Shown here piece by piece: positions 239 to 36,600 of a DNA stretch of 64,000 nt. A program made the translations under genes and the position numbers. How positions within the stretch are numbered: the stretch's first letter is position 1; each line of letters begins with the position of its first letter. The notes below the pieces were generated by a model. That model ran no database searches, had not been told where the DNA came from, and worked only from the letters and a program-made list of their open reading frames with translations. The stretch spans positions 212,406-276,405 of the forward strand of contig NW_003147276.1 in NCBI RefSeq assembly GCF_000003605.2. The letters run 5' to 3'. This stretch comes from Saccoglossus kowalevskii. Lineage: Eukaryota; Hemichordata; Enteropneusta; Harrimaniidae.

Positions 239-658
239 CTTCCACAAAAATGTCTGCTATTGAGGAGGCAGCACCGACTGAATTTGTAGCTTCACATGTG
301 TATGTCCCATCATCATCTTCCTCAACAGATGTAATAATCAGCGACACAAAATTATCATCACTAAACTCGAAATAAATATGTTCACTCTCATGTATCTCTT
401 CCTCATCCTTGTACCATATAATATCTGGTTCCGGATCACCTATGATCTGGCAATCAAGGCTAACAGCACTGTCAACACAAACTTCAACATCTTTCAGTTC
501 CTTTAAAAATTTTGGAGGCAGAAGCTGTTTATTTTTGGTTTTATGGCCCCGAAATGCTGCTTGGATTTTTTTGGCTGCAGCGGCAACTTCAGGATCTTTC
601 AAATCAATGTCAATATCTTTTTTAGACAGCTGTACTTTAAGATCTGGTTCATCAGCAT
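239..658 (-). CDS. Exon 65: IQ module and Ig 9
   Basis: A 420-bp phase 1-1 exon. Linker DADEPDLKVQLSKK, IQ module DIDIDLKDPEVAAAAKKIQ and IQAAFRGHKTK (IQ core 534-566), then an Ig: LLPPKFLKELKDVEVCVDSA, DPEPDIIWYKDEEEI, DDGTYTCEATNSVGAAS, ending FVEG. The IQ module is clearly related to the exon 56 repeat but has diverged. No stop is present; the donor is phase 1, so the gene continues left of the window. Confidence 0.93.
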
Positions 659-3600: not shown

Positions 3601-6600
3601 ATACATTGTAGCAAGCATTTCAGATATCTTTTTTAGTTACAATTCAGTATTTATATAAAAAGTTAAAATCAGGAAAACTCATGCTGAAACTTTTTTTCCA
3701 TTCATTTGTTAGCGATGGTAAACTCCATGGTTAAACACACTCATTAGAAAAACTAGATTTCCAACTACAGAAAAAACATAGATGAGCATGCATTGGGTAT
3801 GCAAGAAATTACACCGACCACCATTAGTTGTCCATATTTGGCACTGGTTTGTTTGCCAGTTGTTTATTTACTCAAAACAAGAGATTGGAGAGACAGAAAA
3901 GTACAATGCTGGATAGAAATAAAGACTAATAAAAAATAAACATAATAATGGTTAATGGTAAGTTTTCTGGATATAATACAATATAGAACCAAGCCTTGGT
4001 AAAATTAATAAGTATTGAAGAGGTATGCAAAGTATAAACAAAGTCATTATAAGACGCTGCAGGGAAAACTTGAAGCATTAAGGGGTTGACCAATATAAAT
4101 CTTGGTGGGGTGGTGCAAAATAGTGTTATTTTCACTATGACATATTAGTTTTTATTTTCATTTGAGAGTCTGAATATATGGTCTATCACTGTGGCTGAAT
4201 TTTGTTATTGTATTATTCAAAACCTTTTTTCTATGTATCTTTCAATTCCTCCCCATGATTCTAAATGGTACACACCTTAAGTCAATGCAGCAATGTATTG
4301 ACCACAATGCAATATGCATTATATAATATCAGGTCAATATCACATCATATTGACCTCAATGCAGGGCAATATTATCAATAATGACTTACCAGTGACTTGT
4401 AAATAGGCCAGTGTATTAGCATCACCACCAACATTGGTCACATTACACCGGTATTGACCGGCATCCTCAGGAAATGCCTCTGCAATTGTTAGTTTGCAAA
4501 CACTCTCCTCTACTACCATATCAAAATATCTTGACTGCTTGATTAGTTTGTCGTCTTTGTACCATGTCACTTCAGGTTGAGGATCACCTGTCAAATTACA
4601 GCTGAAAACTGCACTGTTACCTTCTTTCACAACCTACGAAGAAAATAAACAAATTTCACTGTCAAAACAGGGAATGAACACGGGTCCTTCAATTCAAGTT
4701 GTATATGTACTTATGTTAAACACCAAAAAAGATTTTTAAGCCACTTTGTCACCATCTCTTGAAACCAATGAAAAAATATTTGTCAATGAAACTATTGAAT
4801 ATCTATTCTAGATTTACTATCATTATGAGAAAGGTAATAATAAAGGTAATGCATAACACAGTCCTTAACTAATTAACATAGTTAATACTTTATTATCCCT
4901 GAATCCAGTAAAGGCAAATAAATCACTGACTCTATTAACCAACCAGGGTCCAAATATGCCCATGGTTTTTCTAAGCAATACATGTGTAGTTCTTGCATTG
5001 AGGTTCAAATTGGGCTTATCAAGTCAACATATGTTTTTTTTCTGTGTGCATTTTCTTTTTTTCTTACCTGGTTTGTAAGCTGCTTTGTAATGGTTGGGGC
5101 AACAACTTCACTTCTCAGCTGGTACCTTCTTCTGATTGTTTCAATAAACCACGAAAATCAAGCTGTTCAAGACCATCAACGCTAGCAGTCACTGCATCAG
5201 GATCAAGTTTACTGTTAAATATAGAGAACAGAACAATAAAGTTTGTTATATAAATGTTATAAGTCTAGTGTTGACCCTTTTGTTGAACTGTATTTGGTTA
5301 TAGTCCAACTATTTAAGCGAGAGAGTTGTCACCTGCGTATGCGTATGCATTTTTAGCGTGTGATGTTATCGTTGCTTGGGATGCAATTCCCGTGCGTGTG
5401 CAGGTGACGATCCTCTCGCTTTAATATATTTTGTATTTGGTGAGTTTTGTGCAACACAAATCATCAATCAACAGAAATTATTGTGCAACAAATTATTGCG
5501 ATGGTGTAAAGCTGATTGCACCCTAAAAATATAAGGCAAGAAAAAAAAGGGAAACATTTATATTTAGATCTCAAGCTATGTTGAAATTGAAAGTGCCTGT
5601 CTAAAAATAGCAGTTGATGATCGACTTATAGTCTATTTTTTGATGATTATTCATTTTGTAATTTACAGTTAATTTTCAATGACAATTAGACAGGTTTGTA
5701 AAGATTTAGCCTGTCAAATTAAATTTTTCTCTAAAATGACAGGCGACTGACTGCAAGCCTGATGGTGGCCATGAGATGTACTGCAATATTCACTTATTTC
5801 AGGCATTTTTAGAAATAATGAATTTGAAATTGAATGCTCTCAGAATGCCGAAGTTCAAGCCGTAATTGTATTCAATTTTTTTTCAGGGTACAATCATCTA
5901 TACAAACAAACTAATAGTATTGGAGATTTGGAGATAGTGAACACACAAGATTTTGTTCTATTGAAAAGAACTAGATTTCTTCAAGTGATTCACAAAGAGC
6001 AAGATAAGTAGTGCATCTATCTTTGTAGTAAAGTGCAAAACACACAGACAATCCCACCAAAGTTTCTGTACAAAAATTCTCATCAGTTTTTTATCAAAAT
6101 AATGTTGGACATAATGAACAGTATTCTTATTGAATATAAATATAATATGCAACATTTTCATGAAAATTAAACAAACTTCTCATAATTAGCAGATGTAATG
6201 AATGGGATTTGTTTAATGACAAGTAACTTGTGGTAACAAATTCAACAATGCCACTTAAGTTGATTGTCATTCAGAATAAGGGAAGGATAAGGAGATTCAG
6301 CTAGTTGGTGCTATTGAGTCATTCAGAATAAGGGAAGGATGAGGAGATTCAGCTAGTTGGTGCTATTGAGTCATTCAGAATAAGGGAAGGATGAGGAGAT
6401 TCAACTAGTTGGTGCTATTGAGTCATTCAGAATAAGGGAAGGATAAGGAGATTCAGCTAGTTGGTGCTATTGAGTCATTCAGAATAAGGGAAGGATGAGG
6501 AGATTCAACTAGTTGGTGCTATTGAGTCATTCAGAATAAGGGAAAGATGAGGAGATTCAACTAGTTGGTGCTATTGAGTCATTCAGAATAAGGGAATGAT

Positions 6601-9600
6601 GAGGAGATTCAACTAGTTGGTGCTATTGAGTCATTCAGAATAAGGGAAAGATGAGGAGATTCAACTAGTTGGTGCTATTGAGTCATTCAGAATAAGGGAA
6701 GGAGAGGAGATTCAACTAGTTGGTGCTATTGAGTCATTCAGAATAAGGGAAGGATGAGGAGATTCAACTAGTTGGTGCTATTGAGTCATTCAGAATAAGG
6801 GAAGGATGAGGAGATTCAACTAGTTGGTGCTATTGAGTCATTCAGAATAAGGGAAGGATGAGGAGATTCAACTAGTTGGTGCTATTGAGTCATTCAGAAT
6901 AAGGGAAGGATGAGGAGATTCAACTAGTTGGTGCTATTGAGTCATTCAGAATAAGGGAAGGATGAGGAGATTCAACTAGTTGGTGCTATTGAGTCATTCA
7001 GAATAAGGGAAGGATGAGGAGATTCAACTAGTTGGTGCTATTGAAGAGAAGGATTTGTGGTAGTTTGCAACTCGCAGGAACTAACTATCAGAATCAGTGC
7101 AAGAGTGGCAACAAGGATTTTCAGAGATTAGTAAATAATTGGTGGAGATCAGGCCAACCTGAGAGCAGTTGAGATAGCTCCTACTGGGTGCTTCTCCTCT
7201 GATACGTCAAGACCACTGTGAATGAATGAATGTAATGATAGATGAATTAACAATGTTACTGACATACAAAAGAGAGGTTCGTTTATGGGAAGGGTATTTT
7301 CAAAAACACAATATGTAAACAAAACATTACACATGCATACACCTAGAAACCAAAACATACGATTTTAATAGTTGTATTGAGCCAAAGGGTAACTCAAGGA
7401 GGACTTTCATTAGGGTGTTGGGGAAAATGATACACCTATACTGAGAAGCAGAACTGTACTGGGGAGTGGCCTGTATTACCCATTCAAAGAATCTTTATAA
7501 AGGACAGGTAAAGGTAACCAGGGTTTGGAGATAATGAAACACTTTGATTGTCTGAGAGCCAGAATTATACACAGAATTGGCATGTATCACCCAATCAAAG
7601 CACGCTTTATAACACAGACTACCTGTCTCAACATAATTGAGTGTACTAAGACCAGGGAATTCAGACATTTATATGATTGTACTGATTGGTAATAGTTTGC
7701 ATTCACTAGGGAAATTTTTGGGATTGGACATAATTGTTGCACTAAGATTTAGTGTGAGTTGAGGAATGAAAACACGAACAAACAAACTGTAGTCTAGATT
7801 ACTGGACTAGAATAAATCTACAAAGATACAATTGAACTAAAGCTATAATTAGTAGCAATCTCTTCAACAAACCATATAGCTACGTCACACTAAATGAAAC
7901 AGTGAGTTAATATTTCAACCGCTTTAGTCTGCATTGAATGGATGGAATGGACACAGAAACAGTATCACAATACAACTGGCATTAATGACCCCTAAAAGGT
8001 CATACATCCTGGTATTTTTTTAGGATACAAATTCACTATTAATGTTTTTTTGATGATTTACCCCAGAAATGCAAACAGTTGTTCAAAATCAGTTAAACAT
8101 GACAAAAATGGAGATACAATATTAGAGACTTTTGCTGTTATTAGACAACAACATCCAAAAAAAGTACCAGGATGTGTAACCTTAGAGGTCATGCACAAAC
8201 GACCTATTGCATGCATGCAAACATATATGGTTATGCTACAATTAGCCAACCTTGTCTCCTCCTTCGTTGTACCACCCGTTGGTATCTCTTGTCCACTCGC
8301 CTCACTGCAATAAAACATGGTATTAATTGGCCATCAAGGACTAGTTCAAGTTGGTAATTGGTATGGATTTATTAATGGAGTTTTAATGTTTGTTCCATTT
8401 TTTTCGAACTAGCAAACTTTCGTTCAGGAGGGTGAATGTTGAACGAAGAGATTACTTTTGCTGTGTGTGTGTGTGTGTGTTTTAATTATCCATGGCCAAC
8501 TTCAAAATCTAGGAGTGATAACTTACCTGGCTTTCAAGACTTGTGTAACCTTGTCAGCATCAATGTCCTCTTGTGTAACTTTCAATTCAAATTCACTTTG
8601 ACACTTTCCTTTGCTATTGAGTACAGTGCATGTATAAATGCCTGAATCTGGTGACAAAGCCATTGGAATTTCTAAAGTATGCAGAAACTGTGTACTTTTA
8701 AGTTTTATTCGTCCACCATCAGAAACTGCTTGTCCATCTTTGCTCCATTGAACTGAAAAAACAAAATATTCAGTTTTCAATACATACATATGTGACACAA
8801 GAAAGATAATGTAAACCATAATGTGAATAAATTTGTATTATAGCCATCAACAAATATTGAAGATGCATAGAAGATTTTATCAAAGTAAGTGAGTTACTAA
8901 CCTGTTGGAACTGGTTCACCATCAACTTCAGCTGTGAAAACGGCAGCTTGACCTTCTTCTACAGTCAGTGATTTAGGGGTTTCAAGAAATTCTGGTGAGA
9001 AATAGTCTTCTTCATCTGCAGAAATACTACTTTTAACAGTGATCTTGTCATCCTTTGGTTCTAAAATACAAGGAAAAGTTGATATTTAGTCGAGAAATTA
9101 GATGTGAAAATATCATATTTGAAACAAAAGGACTCCCTAAGTACTATGAAATAAGCATGGAGGTTTTTGTAACATTTTTGAGACAAAGAGTCAACACTTA
9201 ACTAACATTTTAGGGAGTCCTTTTCAGTCAATATAATGATTGCTGATCACAGTTAAATCGTTACCATACATCACTTGGGCAAATACTGCAACTGATTTTG
9301 ATTAGCTGATTTTTGTAATTTATACTTTACCTGTACATTGGCCAGTTTAGTGAATAGATTACTTCTTAGTGAAGATATAGTGAACCCAGTGAGGAGATTG
9401 TAAACCCAGTGAGCAGATTGTGAACCCAGTTTCCAAAGTGTTGTGCAGACTATTGACCAACAACAACTTAATTTGCTACCCTTGATGCAATTGGTGTTCA
9501 ATTAACCCAAATTGACCTTAGAATCTGAATTGAATCCTAGAGCCAAGATCAATAAGGGATAAATTCATCATTAAGCAACAGTAGCTACAAGTACAAGTAA

Positions 9601-12600
9601 GTGAACTTAGAAGTGTTGTGAGCAAGTGATATTTGGTGATCTAATAAGTTCATTTTATTCACATATGGTGAGGAGAATGGATTGAACCTTTATTCATAAA
9701 GCAGCTTTCACAATTCTACAGTGATAAGTGACAACCAAAGTATTTAACACTATTTTACAGAGACAGTGTTGTCATAACTGGAAATGATTTTAATCAACAT
9801 TGTTCAGTGATAACCACTAATTATTTTCATTTGTGTTGGGTCGAACTGTATGCACAATTATGACGACACTACTGCTATTCTACACAGACATTTTTATAAG
9901 CAATATCACAATCAATTTCAACCTTTACTGAAATCAAGCAAAAAGTATTACCCTTTTACTGCCATTTACCTTTTTTTTTTATAAAAACTTAATTTCAGCA
10001 CAAAATTTGTTATTGATCATATATAAAATAAATCATCAAAATCTCCAAATTTTAATTCGAATTGGTCAAAAATGAAAATTGAAGGTAATATAGTATTTTC
10101 CATTACCAATATGGTATAGACAGTGAAAGGGTTGATATAAGCAAAAGCAGAACAAAGATAATTACACTGAAGAGAAAGACAAGCAGTGGGTAACCTTCCA
10201 AGGAGACAGCTAAATACAAGTTGTACAATCTATAAATATTCATTGCACCTCAAATCACCATAGCGATGGTGTTTCCTGGCAGCTATTTTGAAAATTTGAT
10301 TGTACAACTTCAAACTACATATTGATAAGCAGAGCACTAAGGTGACATTACAACAGGTATTGAACCAAGAAAAGCTATAGAGGTCTTATTACATGAGAAA
10401 GCGCAGGAGCAGTGGAAGGTGGGTTGCAAAGTTTATGCTTTTCTACAATTGTACTGACCAACGACAGTAATAGTGGCAGATGTTTCAGCCTCTCCGAGAT
10501 CATTGAGGGCCTCACACGTATACGTCCCAGCATCATCAGGGAATATTTCAGCAAAGACTAACTGATACACATTGCCCTTATTAACATAACGGAAATCTTC
10601 ACAATCTTCCACGTCCTCAGTGCCATGTAACCAACCAACATCCATCGGTTGTGCACCTAGTTAGGTAGTGTTAGAAAACAGTTGTAACATGCAAAACATA
10701 TATATTCTCTCAACTGCTTTAATTTTGAATGATTTAAAAAAAAAATTTAGAGCAGTGAAAATTCCATTTTATTACACTTTATCCTCACAAATCATTGAAA
10801 TGACCTCAGTGTATCAAGTCGCAAAATTTTATATTGGCAAAATATTCATAGCAGATATAGTTAATAATAGTGAACCATGGTGGAATTTTATTTTATTGTA
10901 CTCATCACATATTACTTTTATTGATTTATTTTCATTCATTGCCAAAAGAAAAACAAACAAACCCTGAAGCAGAATGCATTGTGGGTAGCTGGCTGGAAGC
11001 AGATTTAACCATTTGAGTGACAAAATTAGTCACATTTTACCATATAAACACAAATTTCCCCCAAAATGTTAAACTGTAGGCAATAAGGAGTTATTATGTC
11101 CATTTGATCCAAAATCAACTAAGGAAATGTGGAAAAATACATACAATAGACAAAAAGTTGCACAAACATTTTAGTGACACAAATGATGGCTTTCAAAGAG
11201 TCTAAGGTACATTTAATCAACCTGTCACAGAATAGGCATGCTTCAGTACAGGTTTGTAATTTTGTGAAGTAATCATGGTTACCAAACCATATATAAAAGC
11301 AATTAGTTTGCGTAATTTGTAAAAAATGCAATTTTAACCTGATACCTTGGGGCAGACTGTAAGGTCAGAAAGCAATCTAGTATACTCACGTAATACAACT
11401 ATTTTGGTATTGATGTCTAGACTGTTGTCTGGGTTGTTGTTATAGGGCACGTGATTTGATGGACATAATAATTATAGAAATCCAACTAACTTTTTTATTT
11501 TAGTTTGCCAGCTGCTATCGGGTGACTGGTCATTATTCAAGTGTTGCAATAATCCTTTGGTTTATCAAACATGTAAAAATATGACTACCAAACAAGTATA
11601 TGAACAATGTAATTTCAAAACTTGTGATCTTTATCAAAAGTCAAACACAGTAATGGGTTAGTTTTAGTATAATTAACAACAGAGGTATTGAGCAAATATA
11701 AAACATTTAATAAATATTGCACTGGGTGGTTACTACACATACCTTTGAGTTCAACTTCCAAAACAAGCTGATCCCCATCATTGACTTGTGTATCTTTCAG
11801 ACCTTTCACAAACACAGGTTCCCCATCTCCTTCTCGGTCGTCAAGTTCAATTGAAGCTTTAATCTTTTCTGCTTTTGTTTCTTCTTCACTTTTGGCATCT
11901 TTCCTTGCTTCTGCTGGCTTAGCTGATTCTGTTTTGGCTTCTTCTGCCTTCTTGACAACTTCATCTTTAGTGTCTTTCCTGGCTTTGTGTCCGCGGAATG
12001 AAGCTTGGATTTTTGTGGCAGCTTTGGCAACTTCAGGGTCTTCCAGGTCAATGTCAATTTCTTCCTCTTCTGCTGGCTTAGCTGATTCTGTTTTGGCTTT
12101 TTCTGCCTTCTCGGCAACTTCATCTTTAGTGTCTTTCCTGGCTTTGTGTCCACGAAATGAAGCTTGGATTTTTGTGGCAGCTTTGGCAACTTCAGGGTCT
12201 TCTAGGTCAATGTCAATCTCTTCGTCTTCTGCTGGCTTAGCCGATTCTGTTTTGACTACTTCTGCCTTCTTNNNNNNNNNNNNNNNNNNNNNNNNNNNNN
12301 NNNNNNNNNNNNNNNNNNNNNNNNNNNNNNNNNNNNNNNNNNNNNNNNNNNNNNNNNNNNNNNNNNNNNNNNNNNNNNNNNNNNNNNNNNNNNNNNNNNN
12401 NNNNNNNNNNNNNNNNNNNNNNNNNNNNNNNNNNNNNNNNNNNNNNNNNNNNNNNNNNNNNNNNNNNNNNNNNNNNNNNNNNNNNNNNNNNNNNNNNNNN
12501 NNNNNNNNNNNNNNNNNNNNNNNNNNNNNNNNNNNNNNNNNNNNNNNNNNNNNNNNNNNNNNNNNNNNNNNNNNNNNNNNNNNNNNNNNNNNNNNNNNNN

Positions 12601-15600
12601 NNNNNNNNNNNNNNNNNNNNNNNNNNNNNNNNNNNNNNNNNNNNNNNNNNNNNNNNNNNNNNNNNNNNNNNNNNNNNNTCTTCTGCTGGCTTAGCCGATT
12701 CTGTTTTGACTACTTCTGCCTTCTTGACAACTTCATCTTTAGTGTCCTTCCTGGCTTTGTGTCCGCGGAATGAAGCTTGGATTTTTGTGGCAGCTTTGGC
12801 AACTTCAGGGTCTTCCAGGTCAATATCAATCTCTTCATCAACTTCCTGTTTGACTGCTGTCTCATAGCTATAGCTCTGTTCACTATAAAATTCTTCTGTT
12901 ACTTTTCGTGTCGTTGGTGTAGATGTTCGTTGTTTACTTTTATAACTGACAGTAGATTCCGATTCAGTTGAATACTTTGATCGGCTAGGTGACCGTTCAT
13001 CAAGACTTGTCTGTTTACTGCGTCTCTTTTGTCTTCCATGAGTAACATCATCATCCCCTTCAGAATCAATATCAGCTTCAGCTGCAAATATAGTTATTGA
13101 TTATAAAAAAAATTTCTATCAAATTCACTGACAGTTACATCAGAGAATAATGTTTAAAATCTAATTCCACACAAACGTAATATTTCTCATTCTAACAGAT
13201 AGAGGGCATGGTTTACATAACACTAATTTGAACAAATGTACGATAACAAAATTTTTTGTATAGCTTAATACTGTAGGTTTAGGTGGGTGAATATCTACGA
13301 TGCTTTCATAATGGTGGTTGGTATATATTGTTATGTGTATGTGTTTTTTTACAAAGACTTTATTTACATCTTTAGTTGCATGCATGACCCCTAAAAGGTT
13401 GCACATCCTGGTATTTCTGGGTGTATAATTACCCCCTAGCATCAGTAATTCCCAATATTATATCCAGATTTTTGCTATGTTTTCGAGCATAACGACCACT
13501 TTTTATTTGCCCCCCTTCCCTGGATGTATGAGAGGTCATGCAATGGGCCTATTTTTTTGTTTAACCCGATAAGTGTGAATATTTCAGTGTATAAAATCTT
13601 TTCCAGCATTTTTTGGATTTAAAAAAAACACACACATTCACCTGAATGAATTATTAGTTGCTGTTTATGACATAAAACAAAGAGAGAAATATGTGTGTTG
13701 TTTTTACCTTCAGTAACGATGAGTTCGGCAGTTGACGAAGCCTTTCCAGAGGCACTCTTGGCAAAGATTTTATAAAATCCAGCATCGCTCTGATTTACAC
13801 TGCGAATAACAAGAGTTTGTCTACCTCCATCTTTCTTTTCAAGTGAGATACGCTCAGTTTGTGTTACTTGTATGGCATCATCTCCTTTGAACCTAAATTA
13901 AAATTATACAACCAGCAAAGTAAGAATCGACACAGAGCTATTCATGCATAACAGTGGTTCCACTCGTTAATCCCTTTATAACTCCCGAAATGTCACACAT
14001 AAAGTATTACATTTATGATCAACTTTATCGCCTAACATTACATTTATAAGGGGAAGGAAAAAACTTTTCCTCTCAAGGTCTTTGGTTTTTGACTTGGTAG
14101 TGCTTACTAAACCTTCTTTACAAACAGCTATTTGCTGGAATTTGCAATATTTCTGTTTCGTGCATTGCATTTTGGAGAGAACTGTAATGTCAGATTACTA
14201 ACAAGCAGTTAACTTTAAACACCAATTTGGACACGTGTTGTATCCTAATTTGGAGTCAATTTTTATCAGCTTCCATAAAATAAACCTCAAATTTTTCCAT
14301 ATTTGCTTAACAATTTTAATAAAGGCCAATATGGATATGGCGAATTTGTTGAGAAGGTGTTATTAAACTGTGATGTAGGTGGTATTGCCAAGTGAATTAG
14401 GTTCAAATTCTTGTCATTTCTTCCTCCAAAAATATCAAGAAAAAACCTTATGATATCTTGTATAAACATGTGGGGCGTAACACATCGATGGTTTGCGGTT
14501 TTCATGGATTTTTGTTCATCGTTTACATACTGGCCACCTTAAACTTACCAGGAAGTAGTTGGAGCTGGTGTTCCATTAACAGCGACATCAAAGTAAGCGT
14601 TCTGTCCTTCGGGAACACGCTGGGTTTTTAGCGGGATTTGGAATGATGGCCTCACATAGCTATAAGTTTCATCTTCCTCAGTGGCTGTTGAGAGATCAAC
14701 AGTATATAATTAGTAATCTTCATGAATTTTGGATATTCACATTATCAGTTTTGCTCTTAAATATACATGTAGGTGACAAATGCACTTGTCAATGTTAACA
14801 GTTTTTTTTACAGAAGTGCTTCTAATAAAGGAAATACACTGCAGACACTTCTATTGCAGATGCCACAACAAAAGAATAATGAGATGAGCTTCCAGGGCTT
14901 GAACTGAAGGAATTGCCTTGATGACCACGGAGTTACTTTCAAATTGGTACCCTTCAATATTTTCTATGTTATTCCTATCATGCCAAAGCAATTTTTAATT
15001 TTGCCTTGACAATGGGTGCTCACTCAATTCTGAACATTCAACTCTGAACCCTGTAAAGTACTTCAATACAGGCAGGCATCAAATCAAGTTTATTGACAGC
15101 TGTCTACTTTGTCAAGTTTCTTGTGACAAATATCAACAATCCAGTGACATTTTCAAGATGCTGCGTTTGGCATTTACATTTGGACAATAACTGACACAGA
15201 ATTTCATTTCATTTTAACATTTTACATTCTACACACAGGCTGTTAAGAAGAAATAACAGCCTGCACATGACAAGGTTTTCATTACAGTTACTAAAATCTG
15301 TTTCTTTGTTTTTTTTATCAATGATTTTTATTCAATAATCCCTCAAAATGGTTCCAGCAACAGCACCCATGTTCAAAGAGAAATCTACATGGTTTAAAAC
15401 ACTTTCTATTGTAAAGAAATATGTAATAGTTATTGCAGACTGTCACAGACATTTACTAACAAGTCTGATTTTGAAGTAGACTAAGTATTCTTTACTAGAC
15501 AAACATAATGCAATGTTGTTTATGGCAGCTCTTGAGTGCTTAGATTTTGGTTGGTTTTCGGTTTATAACCTGAACATAGACGAAAAAATGGAATGTCAGA

Positions 15601-21600: not shown

Positions 21601-24600
21601 CATTTATCTCCAATTTGCCAAAACGTCCTATTGTGGAACAGCATAACCCCTCTGAAATGAATGTTGCATCTTCCATTGACTGAATTACTTTCATGACAGG
21701 CATTAATGTCAAGTACAATTTGAGTAGTTGTCTGATTCTATGTGACGTCAAGACTGCAACTTAAAACTGTCACAGTTGACAATGTGAATACAGGTCAAGG
21801 GGAAGATTTCATCAATCAATTATACTCACAAAGTTAACAGACATAACCCAAACAATGAGTGAACTCATCTCAAGTTCATTGGAATACAATACAGTTTGTT
21901 TTTTTTGTTCTGTTTTACAAGAATGTTTGTCACCAAACTAATTTTCTTGGCCATCAGTGCAATGCCCCTCCCCCTCCCCCTCCTAAGGAAACTTCCTGAT
22001 CAAACAATTTTTCTCACCAAATTTCACAAATAATTTAACAAAATACATGGGAGATTTTGTGCACATATTGATTTGAGGATCAGATTACAAGACAGCATGT
22101 ATAGAGTGGTCCATGTAAGGTTTGGAGGATGAATTAATAACATACTTGAATTAGTTAAACAGACTGCCAACAGTGCTCATTTCATTGTCTAACATTACAT
22201 GTGCATATTTAGTTAGCTTATGCCAGACTTGGGTTATGTAGGAATTTAAACTCCCTAGGTAAATGAATATGTGGTCAAAGCATACTGATTTATATTTTGA
22301 ATTCTTTTGACTTTATTTTTGTAAATACTGCTCACTTCTTTTCATGTCTGAACTAATACCCAACCAGACATTACGTAATACTTAATTTAAACACCAATAA
22401 AAAAAAATCTATTTCTGAGAAAACTATTTTAAACCAATCAAATGAAAATGAGTCACGAATGACAGATACATGTACATGTAGGGGATCAAACAATGCTCTC
22501 ATCAAGAAATTATTTTGTAAAACTTTTAATATTTTATTATTATTTTTTTGTTACTGCTAATAATCAATAAAACATGGGTTCATACAACATTTTGACATAT
22601 GAATAATAACATTCTTGACAAATACTTGAATTAGGTCACAGCAAAGTAAATAATTTTAATAATATGCTTACCTGGACAAGGTGGTGTCACTTTCAGCACC
22701 AAGACCTGCGAATTTGGATTGATAATGATAATTATTGGAATGTTGAATATTAATTCCCACATTAGTTTCATACATGTAGTTAGGGGAACGATATGAAGAG
22801 CTGGGAGTTGGATAGTGAGATGCTGCATGTGGAGTGTTATAATTTGGTAGATAACGTTGCATTATTTCCTTAATTGCTTCCCGTTTTAATGCTCTGTCCC
22901 GTTCCCATTCTTCCAAGTGGCTACCGCTAACTGGATAAGCACTGCCATGTGAGTGGCGTTCATCGATGACTAATCCGTGATGGTAATCTCCCGATAAAGA
23001 TCTAGCCGGACTTGAACTTCTACTTGGTGTACTACTATGGCCATATCTGTTGACAGATAGGTAGTCCATTCCTACATCACCATTGCGAACACTGTTGCTA
23101 AAATTGTCAAATCCATTGTAAGGCTCCCTAACTGGGCTACGAGTTCTCCGATCCATTGACCTACTCCCAATGCTACCACTTCTCTCACGACTCAAACTGC
23201 GAGTGCGATTTTCAAACCTATCCACACTCAAGTGGTCCATACGAGAGTTCCTTGATTGGCTCCTGCTTTCCTTCTCTGCATTCCCAATTTGGATTTCATA
23301 GCCCCTATTTACAAATTCGTTGCAAGCATTGTACTGTTCTTGTGATAAGTAACTTCTATTGTCTAAATAACTTCTATGCGAGTCACTTGGAGTGTGATCA
23401 CGACTAGGTCTAACTCCATGACTTGTTCCACTATACACAGTGGGTGCAGACAGTCCTGTGCTGGTAGAGCTGTAGGTGGGTACACGCCAGTTTGCTGTAG
23501 CTGGTCGGTGTCCTCTACAAGTGCTACAACGTACAGCATCACTCATTGCTACATTCAAAGCATGGCTACTAGCATCGAGTACAGCAACAGGTTTAAATCA
23601 ATACATTGAAGTGTAAGCCTGAGCTATGCTCAACTTGATAAATAAGCATAACTTTACACTGCTTCAACAATGACAGGCTTCCAATGGTCCAGCCCCTCAT
23701 GAATATTCATGAGTATACATGAATGAGTATATCTATTTAACATAGCCAAGTCAACAAGCTGATTATACAGAGAACCAAAAAGAAAGGGGAACAATGGATT
23801 GACAAAGAAGACTGTCAAAAGAATTGTTGATTATACAAAGATATTTTATCTGACACAATTTACAGGTAACATGGAAAGAAAAGAAATCCGAGCAGCAGAA
23901 CATTTTATTGTTCAGATAAAGTACTTGCACTTGAAAAAGTGATAATTGAAAACCATGTCACAAAAATGTCACCAACATATTTCCCCTCCTCTTCATGCAA
24001 GTTCATTTATTTAAATTTTGGGCAACCACTTTCAGTGAAAATACTGAAGATTTATTTTCAATCCACATGTAGTTTTGGTTGCTACAGTATTAATTAGTGT
24101 ATCTTTATTCCATTTTCCACCTAAATAGAAATGCCATAATTTTTCCCCCTATACAGCTGAAATAAAGAAAATCTTATTATAGTATTTTGTGCTTGAAACC
24201 TTTAAATTATTAACTTATTTGTAAAATTGAAATGCTTTGTTTTTAAGTTTAACATTCCAAAGTGAGATGCATCCTTGACCTGTCAGTATTGATTGCAAAT
24301 ATTTTGTTTCAAACTGTTGACATTTAGAGGATAACTTCCTATAAGCAGACCATTTATCTATTGCACTTGAATGACTTTTTTAATTTCCTGTCTTAAAAAT
24401 CATACAATTTTATAATGATTAATGAAATTATTCTTAGATTTTGAACTGGTCTCATAAATCGACAAATATAAAATTTTAAAAGTTATAATTCATCAAAAAA
24501 AAGAAAAAGAAATTAAAATGTTAATTAAAAGGTTAAATTATCATTTATTCAGATTTGCTTCTCTCCTAATCTCAATTCATATTGTGATTCATGAAGTGAA

Positions 24601-27600
24601 CAAAACGATTGTTTTGTCGAGTAACAGGCAAGTCTTTATGTTTGTTAATGGTTATCATAGCAACTGAATTGGCAGGGAAGAGTTGAAACAAAGCTGCTGT
24701 GCAAGAAAGAGAAATCTGAAAGACTAATACACAGTATGTTGTTATACCATAGGAACACTGCCTATGCATTATATGTCTATTTTAACAGGATATTTATTTT
24801 AAACAAACAAATTTTGAAGTATTATTTCTACAGAGAATATTTTCAAAATACAAATGTTTTATTTAAAAAGTAATTAGGTCTGAATGCAAGTGAAACTAGA
24901 ATGGGTGTGGTGCCTATAACCCTTTAAAGATTGCAGCCAGTTCAGTGAGTTTGTTCAGTCTAGCATCTTCGTGATTATTCTCCTATTTTCAGCTTATTAA
25001 ATACATTTCATATTTTTTACTTTTATGCCTGAGACTTGGTAAAATGTGATTGTTTCAGTGGCGGATGGCAAGAAAGTTAAGAAAGAGACGTGGTTGCAAC
25101 CTGTATTTATGGTGGATTCTGCATGGCATCTATGTTATATGTTTCCTCTGCTTATAAGTGATTTCAAGAGGATAAATGAAAGAATCAACAGAAACTGTAA
25201 AAAGAGTGAAGTAGGCTGTTCATTAAACAAGAGACACTACTCCACAGAATCAAGTTGAAGTGACACCCAAGACAATATACAGTAACAGCTATTTATTGTT
25301 AAGAACACTACACTAAAAATATCCAATGTCAAGAGGTCAGTGAACCATGGGGCAGCCAGACAACTGTATTTTGGAAAAAAGTTAACAAGTAAATGAAGTG
25401 GGGTGGTAACGCTCTCATCTCTGTGCCAAATATCAGTTGATACAGCATGTGTGAAGAAGACACAACTGTCATCCATTGTTCAGAAAATTTGCATATTCAG
25501 ATTAGGGGTTTGTTATACTTATCAGCCAATCAACATCACTGTCATCCATTGTTCAGAAAATTTGCATATTCAGATTAGGGGTTTGTTATACTTATCAGCC
25601 AATCAACATCACTGTCATCCATTGTTTGGAAAATTTGCATATTCAGATTAGGGGTTTGTTATACTTATCAGCCAATCAACATCACTGTCATCCATTGTTT
25701 GGAAAATTTGCATATTCAGATTAGGGGTTTGTTATACGTATCAGCCAATCAACATCACTGTCATCCATTGTTCAGAAAATTTGCATATTCAGATTAGGGG
25801 TTTGTTATACTTATCAGCCAATCAACATCACTGTCATCCATTGTTTGGAAAATTTGCATATTCAGANNNNNNNNNNNNNNNNNNNNNNNNNNNNNNNNNN
25901 NNNNNNNNNNNNNNNNNNNNNNNNNNNNNNNNNNNNNNNNNNNNNNNNNNNNNNNNNNNNNNNNNNNNNNNNNNNNNNNNNNNNNNNNNNNNNNNNNNNN
26001 NNNNNNNNNNNNNNNNNNNNNNNNNNNNNNNNNNNNNNNNNNNNNNNNNNNNNNNNNNNNNNNNNNNNNNNNNNNNNNNNNNNNNNNNNNNNNNNNNNNN
26101 NNNNNNNNNNNNNNNNNNNNNNNNNNNNNNNNNNNNNNNNNNNNNNNNNNNNNNNNNNNNNNNNNNNNNNNNNNNNNNNNNNNNNNNNNNNNNNNNNNNN
26201 NNNNNNNNNNNNNNNNNNNNNNNNNNNNNNNNNNNNNNNNNNNNNNNNNNNNNNNNNNNNNNNNNNNNNNNNNNNNNNNNNNNNNNNNNNNNNNNNNNNN
26301 NNNNNNNNNNNNNNNNNNNNNNNNNNNNNNNNNNNNNNNNNNNNNNNNNNNNNNNNNNNNNNNNNNNNNNNNNNNNNNNNNNNNNNNNNNNNNNNNNNNN
26401 NNNNNNNNNNNNNNNNNNNNNNNNNNNNNNNNNNNNNNNNNNNNNNNNNNNNNNNNNNNNNNNNNNNNNNNNNNNNNNNNNNNNNNNNNNNNNNNNNNNN
26501 NNNNNNNNNNNNNNNNNNNNNNNNNNNNNNNNNNNNNNNNNNNNNNNNNNNNNNNNNNNNNNNNNNNNNNNNNNNNNNNNNNNNNNNNNNNNNNNNNNNN
26601 NNNNNNNNNNNNNNNNNNNNNNNNNNNNNNNNNNNNNNNNNNNNNNNNNNNNNNNNNNNNNNNNNNNNNNNNNNNNNNNNNNNNNNNNNNNNNNNNNNNN
26701 NNNNNNNNNNNNNNNNNNNNNNNNNNNNNNNNNNNNNNNNNNNNNNNNNNNNNNNNNNNNNNNNNNNNNNNNNNNNNNNNNNNNNNNNNNNNNNNNNNNN
26801 NNNNNNNNNTGTCAGCCAGACTACTGAGGAGAGAATCCACAAAATAATTGGATAGCAGCCAGGCTGGCAGATTTAGTATTTAACTTTCAAGACAGTCAAA
26901 ATTAGATTTTCTACTACTTTCTGCGTCTAATAGAGCAAAGTACTAAAGTGGAAGAAGCATTTTTACCAGTATTATACAATAATTACCAAAATGTGTGCAT
27001 AGAAATGTTCAAAAGTAGACTGTGCTTGATGTACCATAAAATCAACTATGTGGTAGGGACCTTGCATGTAATGTCAGCCAGACCTGTTTATGAAGGTTAA
27101 TGTTAGTAATTATTTATGAGGGACTGCCTAACATGTCTGGGTAGAGTGTGATGGATTATGGGTAAAATCATAAACTGTTCTGAGTAAAGGATTTCCTTGG
27201 CATTAACACTTTCTGGTCATCGTTTTAGTATAAAACTTCCTTTTTTCTTGGCAAGGGGAAGCTAGGGATAGGCTAAAGGAAGTTGAGGTTAAGATATTAG
27301 TTTATTTATAGCTCTTTAGATGCATTTATATATGAAGGGAGAAAAGAAAAGAAATCTAACATACCACAAGTTTGAAATTGGCCGTGCACTTCCAGTATAT
27401 CGGCACCATTGTTTTTAGTATCACAAATTATGCAAAGCGGGATAGATCATTCATGGCAAAAAAATATTCAGAAATATTCTTCAATGATGGTAATTATTTC
27501 CTTACAAAGTACAATGACCATAGTTTATACTTTACTTTTAAACTTAAAATTTGTTAATTTGATGCCAAGTCATGTAGAGTAGCATGTTGAATTACCTCAA

Positions 27601-30600: not shown

Positions 30601-33600
30601 GTCTTCTTGCACGCTCACCAAGTGTCATTCTGAAAATAAATTGATATATGTATATATATATTCAGGTTTCAGAGCTTCTCTATTATAAGCCTATTTAGAC
30701 TGAAACTGATTCAACAAAGTGGAGTTTTTTGGGTTTTTTCATAAACTTTCTTTCAAAAACAGTTGTCTCTGAGAAGAGATGATGAAATACAACATATTCC
30801 TTACAACTTGCTGCATCATGTTGGCTCTATCAGCTTCAATGAAAGCACATGTACCTCAATAGTCGTAAATATTGTATACTGGATAATTAAATATGACTTG
30901 TTTTAATCACAGACTCAACCCTCTCATTATGTAAGTGCATAATAGAGCAAAATTTTGAGTTTATATTCTGGAGAATTACAAAATTTTTACTAGATTTTAG
31001 ACAGAAAGTCACAGTAAACAGGTTTACAATTCTTTCCATTTTGACAATGTATAATAAAAGTTTGCTGGCAATACTACTATCTAGGACTTGGTTTTTTTTA
31101 CTTACTTGATTCTTCTGAATCCTTCAACTCTCTTCTCTCCACGTCGTTCAAGTTCCGCTTCATCCATATCTATAAATAAATGGATAGACTTGTAAATTCC
31201 TTTTTTACAACTATTGATTTCTACTTTATGTATTATAATGATAACTGTACAATAAACTTACATTCAATTTCCAGAAGTGCACTGCAGTGTGCTTTGCCAT
31301 ATGAATTCACAGCTTTGCAAGTGTACTGGCCAACATCATCAATTCCGGTATCCATGACAACCAGTGTGTAATGACGATCATCATAAAACATTCTGTATTT
31401 TAGACCAATCTTGAGCATTCTATTGTCTTTATACCATGTAATGAGTGGTTCAGTTAATGCTGATACTTCACATTCAAATCTACCAGCATGTCCTTCCAAT
31501 GCAGATTGGTTCTCCAATGGGATCACAAATCTTGGTGCAGCGTCAAGAATATCTACAGAACAAAGAATGAAATTTAATTTCATTAGTTTTGAAAATCCAT
31601 GACTTCCCAGTACTGTAAAATAATTTACTTTCGCTTGGAATTAATTTTCGCTGAAGGAATGATTCAGTGAAAATAAAATCCAGCGAATATACCTTTTTTT
31701 CCTATATATTACATTCAACTTATCAAAAATTAGTGAAAATAAATTCCATACAAAACACCCAAAAAGTCTTTTCAGTGAAAATGAATTCCACCTAAAATAT
31801 TTACAGTATCTGTTGTTTTATTAGCTGCCACCACATATATCTTAATCCAGTTCGTTTAGATTATTATTAATAATCTTTTGCTTGCTCTTCATTAATGAAT
31901 GTGAGTAATCCATGGATCTGATTCTGAACCCAACCCAATCTAAACTAATCCAATCTTTTCTTTTTCAATCCAATCGAGTCCAGTATAATTTAATTCATTC
32001 CACTCTCAACTCCCAATAATTTAGTGCAATTTAATCCAATCAAAACCAATACAGTCTTATCCAATTTAATCCAGTCTAATCAAATCTATTGTAATCTTAA
32101 CCAATTTAATCTATAATTCTATCAAATCTCAACCAATTAAGTATACTCTAATATAATCTAGAGAGCTCCAATTTCAAGTTTAATCTAATACAATGCAGTC
32201 TAACCTTTTCATGTCACATGATCAACAATATACACAAGTTCATGTACCATGACTTACCCATATATAGTAGTCTTTCATAAAGTGACTTGCCACGATATGC
32301 TTTATGTACAGCTTGTAAGCTACCCATGTGTGCCAGTCTACCAATACCAAGTAATGTATCACCAGCACCGTGTGGGCGACGTCTTTCATGGAATTCACGA
32401 AGTTTGTCGGTGCATAATTTTCTAGCTTTTCGTCTAGCATCTTCGTCAGTTTGCATTTTCAACCATGGATGACGGATGGCTTCCTGTACACTCATACGTT
32501 GTGGTTTTTCTTTCACCAGTAGTTTTTCAATGAAATCTAAGGCTTCATCTGATATATCGTCGAATGCCTCTTCATCAAAGTCCCACTCAGATTTTGAAAC
32601 GTTACGAAGAGTTTCTTGGTCATCATCACCCAAGAATGGAGAAAGACCACTCAGCCTGAATAAAAGGTGCAAATATCATTAAAATTCCACCAAGAGAATA
32701 AGTTTTTGTTTTTGATTAAGTAGTTAGGAAACAATACACAATATCAATCAAATTAATTTAACTATTTTAAATTTGTCATGTAACTTATTTATCTTAAAAT
32801 ATTATGGCAAGCGATTACCGTAACCCTTTGAAAGTTGGTGCAACATTTTCAATTTTCTGTGTATTTTTCATAATTTTGCTGTTAATTTTCGACCAAACAG
32901 ACATGTTTTTAGAAGATAATTGGAAATAAATTAGGTGGTAAATAGCAATTTTATCATTCAAAGTGTTACAACTGAGAATAAACATATAAACAAAGCTGAG
33001 TAAACAATTGGGAAAATTCTAGAACATAGACAAGAGAAAAAGTTAATCACAATTGCTTGGTGACCATAGTTCTAGTGAAAGCTTTGTAAGTAGACATATG
33101 GCATGGATAACATTACAAAAATCAAATTAAATAGTTAGTCAACCATTTCATCTAAATTAGTTTAACTGCTTACATTCTTTGCAAGATTGACTCATGAGTA
33201 AACAAAACAAAAACTACAGGCATAATAACTGATATGTTTGTATTTTATTCCCTGAAAAGCAATTGTCTGGAACAGACATATTTTCCTAAATACAGGAGCA
33301 TATATTGAAACTGTTTTCATCCATGTGTGACTCATTTTCCGTTTTTTAATGATCAAAATAAATAGAGGAACTCTCACAAACAAACAATTTATCGGTTCAA
33401 GTAACATTTCAAATTATATTGAAGAACAACAAATTTAAATGGTAATTTACTTTCACAATGAGCAAAACTTCATGTAACAGAGTTCTTTTTCACTACACCA
33501 CATTATTTCAGCAAAAATACATAAATATTGAAAACATGATGAACTTACAATATATATGCCATGACTCCAACAGTCCACATATCAGTCGGTAAACCAATAG

Positions 33601-36600
33601 GTTCAAAGTTGACAACTTCTGGTGCCACGAATTCAGGTGTACCAAACATTACTTTGATTTGTTCACCAGGATCCATATGGCGTGCGAGACCGAAGTCAAT
33701 CAACTTGATGTCATAACCAGTACGTGTTGCACATAAGATGTTCTCAGGCTGAAAATAAATAAACACACAACATCAGTTTAGAAAAATCAGTAGAATACTG
33801 GACAGAATGAACATACAATAATCTGTTATGGTTTTTTTTTTTTTTTAAATATTATTACCGATACCAACTATTTGTATCAATGAACTCAAAATGTGATCTT
33901 TTCACCAGAGTTTATGTTTTTGCTATAGAAGGCTCACTTATTTGTAATTCATGATCCAATAAAAAAGGATGCTGCTTTGATTTTTTGATAAAAGATGCGG
34001 CATGGCATCATATTTGATCAAGGCAGTAAATGTGTTCTGATTCAGTAAATGCATATATTAGTATTCGTGTATACAAAATGCATACAGGCACTGCATGTAA
34101 TGACTATGGTATTTTGAGATGTGCACTTTGATGCTTCACATGCAGGCACTGCATGTAATGACTGTGGTATTTTGAGATGTGCACTTTGATGCGTCACATG
34201 CAGGCATTGCATGTAATGACTGTGGTATTTTGAGATGTGCACTTTGATGCGTCACATGCAGGCACTACATGCAATGACTGTGGTATTTTGAGATGTGCAC
34301 TTTGATGCGTCACATGCAGGCACTGCATGTAATGACTGTGGTATTTTGAGATGTGCACTTTGATGCGTCACATGCAGGCACTACATGTAATGACTGGTAT
34401 TTTGAGATGTGCACTTTGATGCGTCACATGCAGGCACTGCATGTAATGACTGTGGTATTTTGAGATGTGCACTTTGATGCGTCACATGCAGGCACTGCAT
34501 GTAATGACTGTGGTATTTTGAGATGTGCACTTTGATGCGTCACATGCAGGCACTGCATGTAATGACTGTGGTATTTTGAGATGTGTACTTTGATGCGTCA
34601 CATGCAGGCACTGCATGTAATGACTGTGGTATTTTGAGATGTGTACTTTGATGCGTCACATGCAGGCACTGCATGTAATGACTGTGGTATTTTGAGATGT
34701 GCACTTTGATGCGTCACATGCAGGCATTGCATGTAATGACTGTGGTATTTTGAGATGTGCACTTTGATGCGTCACATGCAGGCACTGTATGTAATGACTG
34801 TAGTATTTTGAGATGTGTACTTTGATGCGTTTCTAATCGAGCAAATACTTACCTTGATATCAAGATGTAGAATATTCTTTTCATGCATATATTTGATGCC
34901 ATCACACAACTGTCTCATGTATATCACAACCTCAGGCTCAGTTAGGACGTAGTTTTCGTCAATTAAACGTTCAAAGAGTTCACCACCAGACAAGCTTTAA
35001 ATGAAATATTCAAACAAATTGTTATACAAGCAGAAAAGATTGTGAGTTTTACTATCAGAGGAATTTAATTAAATTTTCTCACTATGCCACTATAATAGAA
35101 AGATGATCACACAGTCCTGTCATGTAGTCCGAAACTGGATGATGATCTCTATTGCAAAATGCACTATATGTCAGCTCTCGCACTTGGACAATGCACAAAA
35201 AACGTCAGGAGAGACAAGAGTGGCATTCAATGTTCGACAGTGTCGACTGGCACAAAAAAAAATAAATGTAATTATCCAACTTACAATTCTAGAACCATGA
35301 TAATTTCTTCATCCGTTTCAAATACTTCATGTAATTGCAATAAGCGTTTATGATGTAACTGACACATTATTTCAATTTCTTTTTTAACGGCTTTTCTTTC
35401 ATCTTCTCCAACTGTAATAAACTTAGCAGCCCAAGTCTTGGTGGTTGTTTTCTCAATTGCACGATAGACAACACCATATGCTCCCCTAGAATCCAATGAA
35501 TAGTTAGTTTTAATACTCACAAAAGAAGGAAGGAAAATAAAAATAATGTGCACTGGTGGGGAAAAGAAAATCATAAAAATTTGTACAACTGACAATTCAC
35601 ATTTTAGACCTCATGAATGGTTATAAATAGTATCAAAATAATGTTAATAAAATAATAGTGGCTATGGGTAATTTCCAACTCGATCCTTACCTGCCAAGTT
35701 CTTCACATATTTCATAATGATCATACACAGATCCAGGTCGGCCACGTATCACATCGTATGGCAAGAAATCCAAATCAACTTGATTATCATAGAATTTACG
35801 CTTGTATTCATAATCTTCAAATTCAGGTCTTTCAGGTGAACGTGCTGAAAAAAAAGAACAATCATATTTCTGTCAAGAATACTGTAGAACTGTTGCTATT
35901 TCGCAAGACACAATTTTTCATTAATTATGCAAATATGAATAAATCTTTGAAGTATCTAGCTGCGAATATTTCCCTATGGTCTTTGAGACTGAAAGTTACA
36001 GTCACTTTCACAAATGTCTTAAAATTAATATGAAATTAGCAATTTTCTGATACATTTTATTATCCAGCGTGTATCCCTAACGTATGCAAGCATCTCTGAA
36101 AAGCTGATTTATACAGGGTCTTCTGGTTTGCAAAGAATCAACATTCAAGACAAGCCAAGTCCAAAATAATCAATATGCACAATGAAATGGATTCAGCAAA
36201 GAGGCAATCGTTTTTATACATTTTTATTTTTTTTATACCTAAACTTTAAAAGCCACAAAGATATAGACCATAGGATGTGACACCAGTACGAGGACGTATC
36301 AGACACAATAATTACAAAAACATAGAAAAATATAAAATTTAACTTTCTTTATACCAATTCTTTGAAGGTAAGGTTAGACATTTTAAACTTACGTGTGGTC
36401 TTTATAGTTTTACTAACTTCTGATGATTCACTTTCACCGTGGAGATTGAGAGCTCTAGTTCTGAACTGATACTCAGTGTGTTCCTTCAATCCAAGGATAG
36501 TATGTGATGTATTCCTTGTTGTTATACACCTTGTCCATGTATCAGTACCCACTTCACGTTTCTCAACAAAGAAAGACGAGACACGTGAACCGCCATCATA

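Follow-up and report, generated by a model that had tools for sequence, protein, structure and literature searches.

The DNA analysed here, called the window throughout, is a stretch of 64,000 nucleotides from the hemichordate Saccoglossus kowalevskii (contig NW_003147276.1, hereafter C3771; the window is C3771:212406-276405), and a domain profile map indicates that its minus strand codes for part of a giant Ig/Fn3/kinase protein. We found that one exon of this protein, which sits between the fifth and the sixth Ig domain detected downstream of the kinase, carries a tandem array of 53-residue units, and comparison of their sequences supports well the conclusion that each unit is a built-in PEP-19/PCP4-like module, in which an acidic half is joined to an IQ motif (acid/IQ module). 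By analogy with PEP-19, we think it somewhat probable that the array provides tethered docks that would keep calmodulin close to muscle kinases and speed its loading with Ca2+; on this view the muscle scaffold itself may be the place where the animal anchors calmodulin and tunes it.

The array exon has exact borders at 13081 (after ...TTTGCAG) and 11743 (before GTATGTG), with AG/GT signals on the minus strand. Its parts, together with a single related module (module S) nearer the window edge, are as follows (window coordinates):
11743-13081, minus strand: exon made up of a Ser/Arg-rich lead, the acid/IQ array and the N-terminal stretch of Ig6; open frame, phase 1 at both ends
12840-13081, minus strand: lead segment ahead of the array, acidic and rich in Ser, Arg and Lys, as read from the translation
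12681-12839, minus strand: acid/IQ unit U1, 53 amino acids
12272-12678, no strand: gap of 407 N within the array, the flanks of which share an exact 47-base dovetail
12227-12271, minus strand: 15-residue unit tail (45 bases) bordering the gap, with the same DNA sequence as the U1 tail
12068-12226, minus strand: acid/IQ unit U2, 53 amino acids
11909-12067, minus strand: acid/IQ unit U3, 53 amino acids
11743-11833, minus strand: beginning of Ig6 (PVFVKGLKDTQVNDGDQLVLEVELK) according to the translation; the next exon (10463-10642) completes Ig6
528-623, minus strand: module S, a single diverged acid/IQ module directly before Ig9 (E 2.4e-13 with a profile built from U1, U2 and U3 only)

Each unit runs from an acidic coil (IDIDLED) that ends at a proline, through one IQ helix, to a Lys/Glu-rich linker that leads into the next unit, and U1, U2 and U3 are mutually 92.5-95.6% identical in DNA. 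The Pfam IQ family (PF00612) scored 52 bits on a two-unit stretch (E about 2e-14). The window holds 1971 stop-to-stop frames of 20 residues or more; in these, the exact motif IQxxxRGxxxR occurs three times, always within the array, and the looser [FILV]QxxxRGxxx[RK] occurs four times, the fourth being module S, which has Ala for the Ser, is 73-74% identical in DNA to the array units and scores 17.2 bits against Pfam IQ, under the cut-off of 20.3. Equivalent points on the two sides of the gap lie 454 bases apart, or 2.86 periods, a distance that is a multiple of neither 3 nor 159 and breaks the frame. Given this gap length and the 47-base dovetail, the three complete units are a visible count, from which the true number may differ; about six would be present if the gap is close to its stated length.

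The Ig profile caught the second part of Ig6 only (profile positions 24-83). Skipping of the array exon by itself would keep the frame and lose the start of Ig6, and since the exon carries this start, its omission by itself is improbable. Among the codons that changed between U1, U2 and U3, the 33-residue core holds six silent changes and one replacing change, and the 20-residue linker one silent and four replacing (Fisher one-sided 0.045, two-sided 0.07); these changes, few as they are (12 codons), point to constraint on the core of the unit. A single-sequence AlphaFold model of the array, of low confidence (mean predicted local distance difference test (pLDDT) 64; predicted template modelling score (pTM) 0.26), has helices at residues 26-61 and 79-114, each starting exactly at the proline of its unit (residues 26 and 79), as in bound PEP-19.

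The segment IDIDLEDPEVAKAATKIQASFRGH of the unit aligns with PEP-19 without gaps, through the acidic half, and both have a hydrophobic-alternating acidic coil, a proline and an IQ helix at identical spacing (PDB 2n77). They differ in setting, PEP-19 being a small free protein with one module whereas the window modules stand in tandem inside a giant Ig/kinase protein, and in that the window units have Gly-His after Arg51 and Ala in place of Ser48. By total score, a PDB search with a single unit returned the flagellar protein RSP23 (1.5e-8), Sp17 (0.0053) and PCP4/PEP-19 (0.0086). A profile of four modules matched 23 PDB chain sequences, 12 of them IQ-bearing; the PEP-19 match covers profile positions 2-30, whereas the other eleven IQ-bearing chains start at 13-17, and those of neuromodulin and neurogranin carry the label of IQ-motif constructs. 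The remaining 11 chains, one from a spore germination protein and ten labelled as TRPM3 or probably belonging to it, match the acidic half only and in a chance-like manner (E 2.4-5.3). What sets PEP-19 apart in these comparisons is its coverage of the acidic half, not its total score. With the IQ register fixed, 0 of 200,000 shuffles of the 18-residue flank reached the observed PEP-19 score, as against 4 of 200,000 when the acidic stretch of ten residues was shuffled by itself; these figures are less fair than the search E-values, because PEP-19 was picked after the search.

The residues on which PEP-19 depends are described by Wang and Putkey (2016; PMC5122967): residues 30, 32 and 34 of its acidic coil attach it between helices E and F in calmodulin site III, changes at Asp31, Asp33 and Pro37 inhibit the modulation of Ca2+ binding, the hydrophobic residues 30/32/34 and Glu38 matter by structure, and an IQ peptide without the acidic part leaves the Ca2+ on-rate unraised. 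All of these key residues (Asp31, Asp33, Pro37, Glu38 and the hydrophobic 30/32/34) are kept or hydrophobic-equivalent in 4/4 window modules.

The protein that carries the array has, in protein direction, at least 19 Fn3 domains, mixed Ig and Fn3 domains, an Ig-Ig-Fn3-kinase segment and nine detected Ig domains that reach to the window edge. Its features outside the array exon include:
32217-35872, minus strand: kinase of the titin/twitchin/MLCK class with its C-terminal tail, in five exons, the outer limits being those of open frames
22671-23597, minus strand: Ser/Arg-rich linker, a long open frame between Ig3 and Ig4 that matched none of the Pfam families
243-491, minus strand: Ig9, whose I-set match starts 6 residues past the HKTK of module S

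AAK, HLDIK and DFG motifs are present in the kinase, whose best PDB matches include Aplysia twitchin (335.9 bits), MYLK4 (315.1), Caenorhabditis elegans twitchin (310.8) and human titin (281.9). Its identity is nearly equal to Aplysia twitchin (143/262) and to MYLK4 (139/255), and we therefore name it as a kinase of the titin/twitchin/MLCK class by sequence and choose no single orthologue. An Ig/Fn3 chain together with a kinase of the titin/twitchin/MLCK/DAPK class marks the protein as a titin/twitchin-class giant kinase. Invertebrate kinases of this class have been described with canonical catalytic motifs, those of Aplysia and C. elegans twitchin being highly active, unlike vertebrate titin kinase (PMC4042850). 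A first-pass annotation of the window had described tandem, near-identical 53-residue IQ repeats between Ig 5 and Ig 6, after the kinase, in the C-terminal Ig region of a titin-family protein, and the unit alignments, the IQ profile, the domain map and the kinase matches agree with it on each of these points. Upstream in the protein, the Fn3 domains follow one another at 52192-63779 (minus strand; at least 19 in a row, with no Ig detected between them), extending towards the window edge, beyond which lies the 5' end of the gene.

We searched the unit against the 572-Mb genome and found at least 27 acid/IQ matches, all of them on three contigs (12 on C3771, eight on C4558 and seven on C2531). 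The tallies that follow cover 26 of the 27, with C2531:52068 left out, and 16 of these 26 are distinct. The IQ is present in 26/26 modules, positions 31, 33 and 38 are acidic (Asp or Glu) in 26/26 and positions 30/32/34 are hydrophobic in 26/26; Pro37 is found in 20/26, Lys taking its place in six copies at C3771:394-407k. Because the search query contained the acidic half, these counts speak for consistency and are not an unbiased rate. C4558 has a kinase, of which four exons were seen, and a partial Ig; beyond an N run come eight predicted frames with one module each. A unit of this contig has PEP-19 as its top PDB match (E 1.9e-6 over 32 residues), and so makes a stronger link between the module and PEP-19 than the window unit.

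On C3771, about 23 kb below the window (188.8-189.45 kb), one frame holds KTANAVKAIGRMASL, 40 residues, an acid/IQ module and an Ig. The first 15 residues of KTANAVKAIGRMASL match the smooth-muscle MLCK peptide KTGNAVRAIGRLSSM (E 0.049, 21-residue query), and the matches of this tail at E up to 10 are five in number (three smooth-muscle MLCK peptides, RS20 and one chain labelled CaMKII), all of which we take to be calmodulin-binding peptides. Ahead of this frame lies an MLCK-like kinase exon with MYLK4 as its top PDB match, exon and frame both falling within C3771:182501-202500 (minus strand). Above the window, where the part read starts at 394 kb, six modules at C3771:394501-408500 with identical cores and Lys for the module Pro stand amid Glu/Pro/Val-rich linkers and Ig domains; this region looks like a spring-like repeat with putative calmodulin docks. 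A 1402-residue open frame at C3771:135992-140197 (minus strand), with a loose repeat of the 'ELVVVTPSE' type, ends in an acid/IQ module. All C3771 modules lie on the same strand as the window gene; N runs of 43.5 kb and 15.5 kb stand below the window, and these runs hide the joins. Further diverged kinase exons and Ig/Fn3 domains are seen downstream at C3771:20-106 kb (minus strand), possibly from obscurin-like or other genes, so that several such kinases may form one cluster. Obscurin is marked by two kinases and an SH3-RhoGEF-PH segment.

Elsewhere, C2531:27501-35500 (5137 of 8000 bases N) gave no Ig, Fn3, kinase or IQ match at E below 0.1. Searches with the unit yielded 28 pattern matches in viral contigs and 221 in prokaryote genome contigs, with 0 confirmed relatives in either set, and an NCBIfam search gave matches below the cut-off only.

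These comparisons refine the first-pass annotation in several respects. The likeness to neuromodulin and neurogranin that it had pointed out stands for the IQ half, the whole unit being better described as a PEP-19-like acid/IQ module; likewise, the label IQ names a motif that is present and is too coarse, having overlooked the acidic half of each unit. A myosin-light-chain-type IQ, which it had also considered, is less apt than a PEP-19-like one, only the PEP-19 match among the 12 IQ-bearing PDB chains spanning the acidic half. The array is real, and the module is not special to it, some of its genome matches lying near MLCK-like or spring-like regions.

We propose that, at resting Ca2+, each unit would hold the C-lobe of calmodulin, by analogy with PEP-19, and that its acidic side chains would speed the entry of Ca2+ to calmodulin site III. 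Several units would then amount to a nearby reservoir of fast-loading calmodulin on the kinase-bearing scaffold, and upon a rise in Ca2+ calmodulin would move to nearby Ca2+-dependent sites, for example MLCK-type kinase tails. The sequences themselves show the likeness to PEP-19, the position of the array, the return of modules close to kinases within this genome and the mainly silent change of the core; that the units bind calmodulin, tune Ca2+, pass calmodulin on to a kinase and are expressed in muscle is inferred. Wang and Putkey (2016) proposed that an acid/IQ module inside a larger calmodulin target acts as a dock for apo-calmodulin, which then passes to an adjacent Ca2+-dependent site (PMC5122967). 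Judged by sequence, the 188.8-kb frame of C3771 seems close to this layout, within one frame, and the window array would represent it at longer range.

A number of observations weigh against the likeness to PEP-19 and against the proposed docking and hand-over. PEP-19 is not the best PDB match of the window unit, RSP23 and Sp17 ranking higher in the single-unit search, and with the four-module profile it comes seventh (0.00051), after RSP23, neuromodulin, neurogranin, two Sp17 chains and CFAP91; the single-unit matches of RSP23, Sp17 and CFAP91 start at unit positions 8-10 and so take in the last acidic residues. Conservation of the acidic half across the 26 modules is partly a matter of selection by the query. 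Free PEP-19 is disordered, whereas the low-confidence, single-sequence model of the array shows helices. Substitutions also occur at positions that matter in PEP-19, for which PMC5122967 reports that P37G strongly impairs it, that R51K and likewise K57A impaired the peptide, and that S48T together with Q47N abolished binding. The six modules at C3771:394-407k have Lys for Pro37, 13/26 modules have Lys for Arg51 (all four window modules have Arg51 and Pro37), module S has Asn at position 57, where the other window modules have Lys, and position 48 is Ala in 24/26 modules and Ser in PEP-19. In the window, five Ig domains and a long linker separate the kinase from the array, and the tail of this kinase had no calmodulin-peptide match, so we make no claim that the window kinase binds calmodulin. 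Below the window, nothing but their order and shared strand links the MLCK-like kinase exon to the tail/IQ frame, only 15 residues support the MLCK-like tail, and an 87-residue query that included it matched PEP-19 and no MLCK peptide.

The main rival to the docking proposal is a calmodulin sink, as proposed for neurogranin (also in muscle cells) and neuromodulin, in which the modules would only sequester calmodulin and lower its supply to kinases and calcineurin, with no Ca2+ tuning or hand-over, and phosphorylation of the Ser in QASFRGH would free it; by analogy we regard this as possible, if rather unlikely. The IQ half is very close to that of neuromodulin and neurogranin (AATKIQASFRGH), and the Ser, which serves as a phosphorylation switch in IQ motifs of this type, is present in 3/3 array units. 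Knock-down of neurogranin in C2C12 cells raised calmodulin-calcineurin binding (PMC7038096). However, the Ser occurs in just 10/26 modules, and several modules lie near kinases. Positions 33 and 38, at which neurogranin differs from PEP-19, are acidic in PEP-19 and in 26/26 modules. The acidic residues of neurogranin are distributed differently from those of PEP-19 (PMC5122967).

The exact IQxxxRGxxxR motifs in tandem would also suit an array of the myosin type, which would bind light chains or EF-hand proteins and serve as a structural lever or spacer, a reading that we consider very unlikely: four myosin chains were weak matches, over the IQ half only (E 0.21-0.98, profile positions 16-32), and the low-confidence model predicts separate helices (26-61 and 79-114). 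The IQ motifs of myosin necks lie about 23-27 residues apart in one helix, as compared with the 53-residue period and Lys/Glu linker of the units, and the myosin-neck reading was rejected on this spacing. Nor do we give much credence to the idea that the array is a product of slippage, in which a tandem repeat grew by neutral change within a disordered linker and no calmodulin function was under selection. The units are probably recent, as their 92.5-95.6% DNA identity implies, several other tandem arrays occur within the window, and the contrast between silent and replacing changes rests on 12 changed codons; yet the changes in the core are mostly silent and those in the linker mostly replacing, and a similar core is kept by module S and by the 22 other modules read, across three contigs.

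Parts of this arrangement are familiar from other systems. The titin M-band region and the twitchin C-terminus have the same order of Ig-Ig-Fn3-kinase followed by Ig domains and unstructured insertions. We know of no IQ array in either region. Neurogranin and neuromodulin have a nearly identical IQ core (KIQASFRGH), with a Ser within it, in small free proteins whose acidic residues are distributed otherwise. Smooth-muscle MLCK has a calmodulin-binding tail followed by the telokin Ig, and the C3771 188.8-189.45 kb frame has a like tail and then an Ig, the difference being that an acid/IQ module stands between the two. Vertebrate obscurin, a giant sarcomeric protein of a family with kinases, also has an IQ between Ig domains; it differs in having one IQ, then four Ig and then SH3-DH-PH, with no array behind a kinase (PMC10017460, PMC10129394).

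Among the titles and abstract openings returned by searches of an open-access collection, which leaves most subscription journals outside, none reported an array of IQ motifs in titin, twitchin or MLCK. Vertebrate obscurin is already known as a giant Ig protein with one IQ, and PEP-19 and neurogranin as free proteins with the acid/IQ module; what appears to be new here, by those titles and abstract openings, is the occurrence of tandem acid/IQ modules in a protein of the titin/MLCK class. The window and the genome thus offer candidate natural examples of the dock of Wang and Putkey, in muscle-type kinases and in tandem, and open to short peptides the question of whether a muscle scaffold pre-loads its kinases with fast-responding calmodulin. 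If the proposal is true, a Ca2+ input would be added to a class of proteins often discussed as mechanical sensors. A broader conjecture, which we put forward tentatively and regard as doubtful, is that PEP-19-like modules became in this lineage a general accessory of the titin/MLCK class, as docks next to calmodulin tails of the MLCK type, as arrays downstream of kinases and as spring-region modules, and that stretch could expose or hide the docks. Were this so, stretch in the spring-like region, where modules lie between PEVK-like linkers and Ig pairs, could couple strain to the speed of calmodulin activation.

Apart from the acid/IQ array, the window contains a 52-base unit in 15 copies at 6266-7044, a 58-base unit in 13 copies at 34081-34830, inside an intron of the window kinase, and a 73-base unit in 5.5 copies at 25465-25866, where the array stops at a 943-base gap.

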